This document shows, one piece after another, positions 3,857 to 7,058 of a stretch of 40,681 bases of DNA (positions are counted from its first letter, which is position 1; each line of letters opens with the position of its first letter). Origin of the DNA: Eggerthellales bacterium (GTDB taxonomy: Bacteria > Actinomycetota > Coriobacteriia > Coriobacteriales > Eggerthellaceae). The DNA is taken from NCBI GenBank assembly GCA_029225085.1, contig JAQXVU010000061.1:1-40681 (forward strand). The letters are read 5' to 3'. The position numbers were made by a program, and so were the translations under genes. The notes under the pieces were generated by a model. It had not been told where the DNA came from, did no database searches, and saw nothing but the letters and a program-made list of their open reading frames with translations.

Positions 3857-5008
3857 ATGAGCAATCGTCCCGCTGGATACAACGGCTCTACCGAGAGCTG
3901 GAACGCTATCGATCGCGTGAATCAGGCCGAGGATGCCGCCGCGGCTTCCGGTCGTCAGGCTGCCCTCGATTCTCTGTTTGATGAGCCAGTTGCAACGCCG
4001 GCCCCTGACGGCATGGTGTTTCAGGAGCATGAGGCCCCTGTGTATGAGCCTGTGGAAGTGCCTTCGGCACCTGAGCCCGAGGTTCCTCTGGAGCAGTCCG
4101 CGACCCGCATGATGCCCCAGGTGAACGGGGCAGAGGCTGTTGGCGAGGCGGGTGTCTGGGCTACCCAGGCTACCCAGGCCACCCGGGCCACTCAGGCCAC
4201 TCGGGCCACTCAGGCCACTCAGGCAGTTTCTTCGTCTGCGTCCGCTCAGCCTACGGTGATGATGGGCGGGGATGCCGGTGCGACGGTGATGATGAACGAT
4301 GTTGCAGGAGTTCACAGCGCTGCCGGGGCTCACAGTGCGTCTGCCACAACAGCCATGCCCAGGCAGGGAGCCCCTCGTTCCGCATCGGGCTACGGTGCCG
4401 GTCAGGGCTATGGTGCCGGCTACAGCGCAGCAGGTGCGGCTCAGGGCTACGGAAGCGGATACGGAGCCGGTCAGGGCCATGGTGCCGGTTACGGCAACGG
4501 CGCAGGTCAGAGGCCTGGCGCTGGGTATGGTGGTGCCGGCAATGGCGGCACTCCCAATTACGGCGGAGTCGGCAATGGCGGCGCTCCCAATTACGGCGGC
4601 GCTGGTCGCCCTGCAGCAAACCCTCAGCGCACCTCGGTGATGCCTCGAGTGCAGCAGGAGAGCATGCAGAACTACGGTCCTTCATCTACCGAGGCTCGCA
4701 AGTTCGTCATGCCCAGCAAGAAGGACAATGCTGCGCGCATGGTGAAGAAGGTGGTGAAGATCGCGCTGATCTTCTTCATTGTGCTCGTTCTGTTCTCTGC
4801 GGTGTTCACCACGGTATACCCTATGATTTTGGGCGTTCAGTCCTTCGACCTGGGTGAGACTATCGCGGGGCTTATTCCTGATGACCTGGGCGCTTCCTTC
4901 GACGGCATCATGGCGCAGATTAGCGCAGGTCTTTCCGTTGTAGGTGATCAGATCGCTGCTGGTGCGGCAGATCTAGCCGCGCTGATTCAGGAGGCTCTTA
5001 ATCAGTAG
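3857..5008 (+). CDS. Low-complexity, single-pass membrane protein of unknown function
   Basis: I do not recognise a family. The 383-residue protein starts at an ATG with AGGAGG directly upstream. Residues about 1-50 are charged and helical-looking. They are followed by Pro/Glu-rich sequence, by a tandem ATQATRATQ block (DNA about 4150-4226), and by Gly/Tyr/Ala repeats of the GYGAGQG type with NYGG units (DNA about 4386-4605). A basic segment (KKVVKIA) then precedes one hydrophobic helix at about residues 300-325. About 58 residues follow, alternating hydrophobic and small residues and ending in a helix. The likely topology is a cytosolic disordered arm with the C-terminal helix outside or at the membrane. 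Its stop overlaps the convergent vsr-like gene by 11 bp. A scaffold or envelope role is only a guess. Confidence 0.75.
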   Translation: MSNRPAGYNGSTESWNAIDRVNQAEDAAAASGRQAALDSLFDEPVATPAPDGMVFQEHEAPVYEPVEVPSAPEPEVPLEQSATRMMPQVNGAEAVGEAGVWATQATQATRATQATRATQATQAVSSSASAQPTVMMGGDAGATVMMNDVAGVHSAAGAHSASATTAMPRQGAPRSASGYGAGQGYGAGYSAAGAAQGYGSGYGAGQGHGAGYGNGAGQRPGAGYGGAGNGGTPNYGGVGNGGAPNYGGAGRPAANPQRTSVMPRVQQESMQNYGPSSTEARKFVMPSKKDNAARMVKKVVKIALIFFIVLVLFSAVFTTVYPMILGVQSFDLGETIAGLIPDDLGASFDGIMAQISAGLSVVGDQIAAGAADLAALIQEALNQ

Positions 5009-6071
5009 GAAGGCTCACGATGGTTGCCTCATGGCCTAAGACCTGGGGCAATCGTTCGAAGACATCTGCGGTTTCCAGACGCAGGGTCACCTTGTTGGTA
5101 AGAGGGTGAAAGCCCAGGGCCTCGGTGTCTTGCAGCTCGGCGTCTAGAACCAGCTGCACCCTGTTCACGGAATCGTTCATGAGTGCCAGCATGGAAACGC
5201 GCCCAGGTTCCACATCAAGGGCATCTTCCAAATCTGCATCTGAAGCGAAGGAAAGACGGGCGGTGCCTAGTGCGCGGGCCAGTTCTTTCAGGGGAGCCTT
5301 TTTGTCGCCAGGGAGGGTGTACAGGAACAGGTGGTCGGTGCCTTTCTCGGCCAGGAGCAGGTTCTTGGGAACTGAGGCGTTCATGCGGGCCTCGAGCTTC
5401 TGGGCGTTCTGCATGGTGGTTACCGGCTTGTGGGTGAAGCGCTGGTAGGGGATGTCGGCCTGGGAAAGGGCCTGGTAGCAGGCTTGCACGTTGCGGGCGC
5501 GGCGCTCTTCGGTGGCGTCGCGGAGCTCTTTGGCTTGCACGACCTTTTGGCGCTCCTGGGGGTCGTCGAGGGAGACGACCTCGTACAGGTAGCGCTCGAC
5601 GTCCTGGGTGCGTTCGCCCTTCAGCTCGTGCTCCCAGATGTTCACCACTGTCCACCCCTGGGCTTCTAGCTGAGCGCGGGTCTCGGCGTCCCGTTGCACG
5701 TTGCGGGCGAACTTGGTCTCCCAGTAGTCGGAGTGGGTCTTGGGCTGGGACATGTTGCAGATGGGGCAGCGATGCCAGAAGCAGCCGTTCACGAAGATGG
5801 CGATTTTTCTGCCGGGATAGGCGATGTCGGGGTGGCCGGGGCATTTCTTCCACTGCAGGCGATAGCCGGGGAATCCCGCATGGCGCAACAGGCCGCGGAC
5901 AATCTGCTCAGGTTTGGTGTTGGCCCGCTTGTTGGCCTTCATGACCTTGCGGACAACGGGGCTGTCGGTTGTGGGAGCCTTGGGTTTCGCGGAGCTGGAT
6001 GGCTTCGCGGCGTCAGAAGCTGTGGAAGGACCCTCTGCGGGGCTGTCGGTTGTGGGGGACTGGTTCGCCAC
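4998..6071 (-). CDS. Vsr-type mismatch endonuclease fused to ProXp/YbaK aminoacyl-tRNA deacylase domain
   Basis: A 357-residue two-domain protein. Residues about 38-165 match the very-short-patch repair endonuclease family: NTKPEQIVRGLLR, then HPDIAYPGRKIAIF with the metal-ligand aspartate D82, then NGCFWHRCP (H100), and the WTVVNIWEHEL strand. Residues about 194-357 match the prolyl-tRNA-editing (YbaK/ProXp-ala, also called PrdX) family: THKPVTTMQNA, KNLLLAEKG, LARALGTARLSFAS and the signature DVEPGRVSMLALMND. Vsr nicks T:G mismatches left by Dcm-type deamination; ProXp-ala clears mischarged tRNA-Pro. The N-terminal 37 residues are disordered with two PTTDSP copies. The start is GTG with no clear ribosome site, 9 bp after the corA-like stop, so coupling to that gene is likely. 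No cytosine methyltransferase is in the window. Confidence 0.85.
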   Translation of the reverse strand: MANQSPTTDSPAEGPSTASDAAKPSSSAKPKAPTTDSPVVRKVMKANKRANTKPEQIVRGLLRHAGFPGYRLQWKKCPGHPDIAYPGRKIAIFVNGCFWHRCPICNMSQPKTHSDYWETKFARNVQRDAETRAQLEAQGWTVVNIWEHELKGERTQDVERYLYEVVSLDDPQERQKVVQAKELRDATEERRARNVQACYQALSQADIPYQRFTHKPVTTMQNAQKLEARMNASVPKNLLLAEKGTDHLFLYTLPGDKKAPLKELARALGTARLSFASDADLEDALDVEPGRVSMLALMNDSVNRVQLVLDAELQDTEALGFHPLTNKVTLRLETADVFERLPQVLGHEATIVSLPTD

Positions 6072-6080
6072 GGGGCGTCG

Positions 6081-7058
6081 CTACTTCAGGAATCGGCTCT
6101 TGAACAGGAAGATCGTCATGAGGATGCACACCACGAAGCTGATGATGAAGGGGATCGCCCAACCGTAGGCGATGTCCGAGCCAGGCAGATCGAGGACGTT
6201 CATGCCGTAGAAGCTGAACACGATGGTGGGAATTGCCAGCACCAGGGTGATGATGGTCAGGGTTCGGATGGTCAGGTTCAGGTTGTTCGAGATGATAGAG
6301 CCGAAGGTATCCATGGTGCCGTTCAGCAGGCTGGCGGAAATGGTGCACATCTCGGTTGCCTGGCGAATCTCGATGAGGACGTCATCTAAGAGGTCGTGGT
6401 CATCTTCGTACATGCGAACCACGCGACCGCTGGAAATGCGGACGATGGTGCTTTCCACCGATTTCAGAGAGCTCGAGAAGTAAACCAGGGACTTCTCGAA
6501 GCCCAGCATCTTAATGAGCTCCTTGTTGCTCATAGAGCGACGGAGGACTTTCTCGTTGGCGGCGAACTGGCGGTCGATGCTTCGCAGGCAGGCAATGTAG
6601 CGCTTGGAAATGTGCAGGAGCATCTGCAGCAGCAGGCGGGTGCGATGCCTGGTGTTCATCTGGCGGATTTTGCCCTGGCTGAAGGCACGGATGGTCTCGT
6701 TGTCTTCCTTCAGGCTGATGGTGACGATGCAGTCGTGCTCGGGGAGGAAGATAAAGGACAGGGGATGGGTGTCGTACTGCACGATGGTGCGGTCCTCTGC
6801 CTCATGCTCTTCCTCGACGAAGGGGCAGTCGATGATGATCAGGGCCTGACGGGTGTCATCGTCGAAGTCCGTATGGGAGCGCTCTTCGTCGTCGAGTGCG
6901 GAGCGAACGAACTCCGGCTCGATGCGCAGGGTGTCGATGAGCCAGCGGGCTTCCTCGTCCGTGGGGTTAACCACGTTTACCCAGCAGCCCTTTTCGGGTT
7001 CGTCGATAATGTGAGTTCCATCGGGCATGGTCTTGAAGCATTCGATCAACGGAATCAC
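6081..7058 (-). CDS. CorA family divalent cation channel
   Basis: A 325-residue CorA-type magnesium (or cobalt/nickel) channel subunit. The diagnostic YGMN motif is at residues 284-287, at the end of the first membrane helix (LTIITLVLAIPTIVFSF). A second helix (IPFIISFVVCILMTIFLF) follows, and the tail is basic (KSRFLK), as in the pentameric CorA fold. The cytosolic N-terminal domain is acidic and contains the long helical region that forms the funnel. The start codon reads GTG at 7058; no strong ribosome site is visible. The vsr-proX fusion follows after 9 bp. Ion specificity cannot be read from sequence. Confidence 0.9.
   Translation of the reverse strand: MIPLIECFKTMPDGTHIIDEPEKGCWVNVVNPTDEEARWLIDTLRIEPEFVRSALDDEERSHTDFDDDTRQALIIIDCPFVEEEHEAEDRTIVQYDTHPLSFIFLPEHDCIVTISLKEDNETIRAFSQGKIRQMNTRHRTRLLLQMLLHISKRYIACLRSIDRQFAANEKVLRRSMSNKELIKMLGFEKSLVYFSSSLKSVESTIVRISSGRVVRMYEDDHDLLDDVLIEIRQATEMCTISASLLNGTMDTFGSIISNNLNLTIRTLTIITLVLAIPTIVFSFYGMNVLDLPGSDIAYGWAIPFIISFVVCILMTIFLFKSRFLK

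Follow-up and report, generated by a model that had tools for sequence, protein, structure and literature searches.

One open reading frame of 357 codons in the window (the whole stretch of 40,681 nucleotides that was analysed) raises the question of why Vsr, an endonuclease taught as the servant of Dcm, should share a polypeptide with an aminoacyl-tRNA editing domain. Our preferred reading, to which we assign a probability of about 0.55, is that of a real bifunctional protein, restricted to one lineage, in which the order's own vsr was joined end-to-end with a gene of the ProXp-ala type and the two halves act independently. The relevant features are as follows.

4998..6071, minus strand: complete vsr-proXp fusion gene of 357 codons, from a GTG start to a stop codon at 4998-5000
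5955..6071, minus strand: low-complexity N-terminal tail, aa 1-39; the nearest relative has one too
5607..5954, minus strand: Vsr endonuclease domain, aa 40-155, with Asp82, Asn95, Cys97, His100, Cys102, Cys105 and His148
5496..5606, minus strand: linker, aa 156-192, a Vsr-type tail to about aa 182 and then about 10 residues up to the ProXp start
5001..5495, minus strand: ProXp-ala-like aminoacyl-tRNA editing domain, aa 193-357, with Lys236, Asn237 and His322 conserved
6081..7058, minus strand: CorA-like transporter gene directly upstream of vsr-proXp, 98 bits to corA, under the cutoff of 200.75

A sequence-only reading of this DNA had placed a Vsr and an editing domain in one 357-residue frame without a frameshift, and this held: the frame is single and open, and both domains score above curated cutoffs. 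Pfam matches were obtained for Vsr (PF03852, aa 41-101, E 5.5e-18, 65 bits against a cutoff of 27) and tRNA_edit (PF04073, aa 214-337, E 1.1e-21, 77.6 bits against 25.5), and the NCBIfam vsr model TIGR00632 covers aa 41-149 with 114.4 bits against 97.85. Searched by sequence against the PDB, aa 40-155 match E. coli Vsr (1cw0, E 2.1e-16), and the best match of the C-terminal half is ProXp-ala (5vxb, aa 207-353, E 2e-17). Of the earlier designation of this half as a ProXp/YbaK deacylase, the ProXp part thus stands and the YbaK part falls, given that the YbaK model TIGR00011 reaches 23.9 bits, below its cutoff of 153.25, and a separate YbaK is encoded elsewhere in the genome. The vsr-proXp frame contains no internal stops, compared with 15 and 5 in the two other frames of the same strand, and its third-position G+C stays high across the linker (0.87 and 0.90, codons 181-240). 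A frameshift or a chance frame was ruled out by the domain scores, the stop counts and the codon-position G+C.

Asp82 aligns with Asp51 of E. coli Vsr; Asp82, Cys97, Trp99 and His100 are invariant in the alignments, and the active-site Asp and the GCFWH motif are present. Going by residue roles in E. coli, we take Asp82, Cys97, His100, Cys102, Cys105 and His148 to be the catalytic and metal-ligand positions of Vsr. E. coli Vsr has an FxH half-motif, described as a Vsr feature in one report (PMC1189080); in the fused protein its His is replaced by Asn95, a point against the bifunctional reading. Across 173 Vsr rows of the order, this position is occupied by Asn (121), His (23), Met (18), Arg (8) or Gln (3). 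Because the consensus of another bacterial class has Asp there, the FxH His does not seem to be a defining trait of the wider Vsr family. In the ProXp half, Lys236, Asn237 and His322 align with the corresponding residues of C. crescentus ProXp-ala and of stand-alone homologues, and Lys236 and His322 are invariant in 16 rows; the Lys of ProXp-ala is catalytic according to PMC9425024. The claim that landmark motifs are intact in both domains is accordingly right for the ProXp Lys, Asn and His and for most Vsr residues, and wrong for the FxH His.

The lost FxH His could also point to a repurposed module: a ProXp fold that provides binding to tRNA or other nucleic acids, next to a Vsr-like nuclease directed at RNA or another DNA target; the mitochondrial Vsr-like protein FASTKD4 has been reported to act on RNA (PMC11879112). 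We consider this very improbable, given that ProXp keeps its catalytic Lys and its conserved His and that the Vsr half is of the kind usual in the order. Nothing was found in support of the repurposed binding domain that the sequence-only reading had suggested.

The position of the join also bears on how the protein arose. The nearest relative has a stand-alone Vsr, to which the Vsr half is 60-63% identical as far as aa 178-182, and ProXp homology begins at about residue 190, approximately where stand-alone ProXp proteins start. The join thus falls between two full domains, and this, together with the Vsr half being the ordinary Vsr of the order, favors a bifunctional protein. In the predicted model, aa 171-204 form one confident helix and the Vsr half is confident too; the ProXp half, for which there were no alignment rows, was modelled without confidence and was left out of our readings. 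However, a join near the natural Vsr end and the natural ProXp start would also be expected of an assembly or base-call artefact, whereby the stop separating a tandem vsr and proXp was lost. Internal GTG codons at aa 178, which has AGGAG 12 bases upstream, and at aa 195 may represent the original starts, and the pair is known from a single assembly. Against such an artefact, the in-frame coding signal continues through the linker with no stop over the 357 codons, and conserved Vsr fusions with other domains in the same order (see below) show that such proteins exist. We therefore hold an artefact to be quite unlikely.

The sequence-only reading had proposed a search for the same two-domain architecture in other genomes. 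The pair turned out to be confined to one assembly, which that reading had named as grounds for refutation and which is a point against the bifunctional reading, in collections with mostly one genome per species, where the source genome is the sole genome of its genus and the sole assembly of its species. Vsr and ProXp share a frame in none of the 137 other genomes of the source's family; there, 113 of 138 genomes yielded a match, and only the window's own row spans both domains. Nor, among the matches listed, are the two domains adjacent in any other genome of the family, contrary to what a tandem ancestor would suggest, and no match listed spans both in the order sample (395 genomes) or the phylum sample (396 genomes). 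A phage or plasmid origin was ruled out: 240 plasmid and 41 phage records matched, none of them with a place that covered 80% or more of the query, and viral contigs yielded no relative of the whole fused protein and none of the ProXp set. In the open-licence literature that was accessible, no paper described a fusion between Vsr and ProXp, YbaK, Nudix or a glycosylase. Separately, in one locus (L101, contig 9 of G039), a ProXp-like domain, read by eye, is apparently joined in one frame to a GNAT-like C-terminal part.

Fusion of Vsr as such is common in the order of Collinsella, where 68 of the 175 genomes examined carry a fused form, as judged by similarity to prototype fusions in a non-random sample. 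The partner is a MutT-like Nudix domain in 55 of these genomes, deoxyinosine glycosylase plus GIY-YIG in 4 and deoxyinosine glycosylase in 3; GIY-YIG (in a frame lying where a short contig begins), GNAT, PNPOx, OmdA (24.4 bits, just under the cutoff of 25.6), HhH-GPD and ProXp each occur in one genome. The loci of this census came from family, order, phylum and further search rows and were partly chosen for long open frames, the order matches being those listed; for loci from one search alone (L003-L031), a count by hand gives 6 fused among 29. A Pfam scan of 20 long frames around Vsr, most of them from the order, returned Nudix-Vsr, UDG-Vsr with and without GIY-YIG, GNAT-Vsr, HhH-GPD-Vsr and flavin-oxidase-Vsr, the UDG partner being a deoxyinosine glycosylase by NCBIfam. 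Plain Vsr frames of at least 190 aa numbered 69, and the 66 from the order, when scanned, contained Vsr only. On a quick Vsr tree built from few columns, with the split vsr genes of G061 and G097 left out, the partner labels require at least nine changes, and Nudix-Vsr forms one group.

Controls gave a different picture. Vsr was found in 65 of 197 genomes of a control class, and the 30 best-scoring loci of these 65 genomes showed no partner domain in Pfam, only Vsr and the Vsr-overlapping DUF559/MTES_1575. None of 80 viral loci was fused in a search that used order-derived prototypes and not Pfam. Outside the order, one of six census genomes has a fusion, namely the classical joining of Vsr to a cytosine methyltransferase. 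By predicted domain content, the vsr gene of the Collinsella order is a hub that has repeatedly given rise to fusions; in our reading, the window protein is one of these, its two putative activities lying side by side. The recurrent joining of Vsr to base-damage enzymes is a stronger result than the single ProXp fusion, and its repeated partners, namely a MutT-like Nudix domain, deoxyinosine glycosylase, an AlkA-like glycosylase and GIY-YIG, suggest that the order's Vsr serves base-damage repair generally.

The same census bears on the possibility that the fusion is neutral or young, with halves that behave like stand-alone proteins and a joining without functional meaning. This would fit a fusion of one lineage whose partner comes from a different process and whose two genes lie side by side nowhere else in the family among the matches listed, and several other Vsr partners are likewise single cases. 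However, Nudix-Vsr persists across species (55 genomes), as does deoxyinosine glycosylase-Vsr (7 genomes), so that Vsr fusion is not always neutral, and we regard a neutral origin of the ProXp fusion as unlikely.

One Nudix-Vsr, from Collinsella aerofaciens (NZ_OY725717.1, 730145-731134), is a 329-aa vsr CDS in which the match begins at the CDS start. It is annotated just as Vsr; database names thus hide such fusions. Another (locus L130, genome G260, family f4) comes from a different family than every other Nudix-Vsr genome listed, yet falls within their group on the tree, a placement that reads as a probable transfer or contamination.

In two genomes, vsr is interrupted. On contig 5 of G061 (L106, 2680-4435; L107, 3936-4140), a prophage-like element of about 40 kb, carrying a large serine-recombinase-like gene (named by eye), lies inside vsr and splits its GCFWH motif at the GCF codons. 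In G097, vsr is split likewise, with the parts about 39 kb apart, and the right end also reads KHGCFWH. Judged from these two cases, vsr looks like a putative integration site.

The source genome (1.93 Mb in 91 contigs, estimated 100% complete) encodes one Vsr only and contains no match to the cytosine methyltransferase family PF00145. The observation that no such enzyme is encoded nearby therefore extends to the whole genome, in which a check for dcm likewise found no dcm-like gene. For this reason, the textbook partnership with Dcm is unlikely, in line with the earlier doubt that the Vsr part serves this role. In the source's family, 41 of 103 Vsr-positive genomes are without PF00145. Vsr is present in 62 of 74 methyltransferase-positive genomes versus 41 of 62 methyltransferase-negative ones (Fisher p 0.026, genomes with split vsr excluded), that is, Vsr and PF00145 are weakly associated and Vsr is not wholly uncoupled from methylation. 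PF00145 was found in 146 of 257 genomes of another order sample. One genome (G026) holds two kinds of Vsr: an order-type copy on contig 6 and, apart from it, a second, diverged copy with an in-frame stop that adjoins a cytosine methyltransferase (contig 19, 24851-26438). In Caulobacter, according to PMC12907096, loss of a solitary methyltransferase triggers a DNA damage response dependent on the unlinked VsrA, which makes a Vsr living without any methyltransferase worth testing.

Two of the eight window genes compared, those for an NSS transporter and truA, were matched among 20 Vsr loci, in one locus each, and a conserved neighbourhood was ruled out. The CorA-like gene lies on the same strand, nine bases from the vsr-proXp start, and the two genes possibly share one transcript. 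A defence system was rejected as well, as PADLOC returned a strong score for its Vsr model alone.

Taken together, and as far as domains and residues can tell, we regard a genuine, bifunctional fusion as most likely, though it is a single case. The Vsr half would nick T:G or similar mismatches that arise from base deamination, with no Dcm partner. The ProXp half would hydrolyse Ala-tRNA(Pro), adding a second layer to the editing by the ProRS INS domain; this activity looks redundant, since the other two of the genome's three tRNA_edit domains belong to a YbaK that exceeds its cutoff and to a ProRS that carries INS. The halves would work independently and may have been joined because the order's vsr tolerates fused partners and has kept them in other lineages. 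A broader view, possible but rather unlikely, is that Vsr in the Collinsella order gave up its link to methylation and turned into a shared incision module of base-damage repair, in multi-enzyme proteins with nucleotide-pool cleaners and glycosylases, which the window protein would extend to translation, one polypeptide guarding DNA and tRNA. With a genome that lacks PF00145 and an order in which MutT-like, glycosylase and nuclease domains have been joined to Vsr, a methylation-independent role of Vsr becomes directly testable, for example in Collinsella aerofaciens, and the ProXp fusion would link a bacterial trans-editing domain to an enzyme that acts on DNA.

Among known systems, E. coli Vsr (PDB 1cw0/1vsr; TIGR00632) resembles the window domain, which exceeds the NCBIfam cutoff, in the active-site Asp, GCFWH and four metal-ligand-type residues, whereas the window protein has Asn for the FxH His, a fused editing domain and a genome without a cytosine methyltransferase. 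The Lys, Asn and His positions of Caulobacter crescentus ProXp-ala (PDB 5vxb) are kept in the window protein, but its editing domain is fused behind a nuclease rather than free-standing, and the host ProRS has its own INS domain. Caulobacter VsrA, as described in PMC12907096, is likewise a Vsr-like protein unlinked to a methyltransferase gene, although that genome has solitary cytosine methyltransferases. The Collinsella aerofaciens Nudix-Vsr (NZ_OY725717.1) is, like the window protein, a Vsr of the same order that shares its frame with a second enzyme, in this case a MutT-like partner in the N-terminal position.
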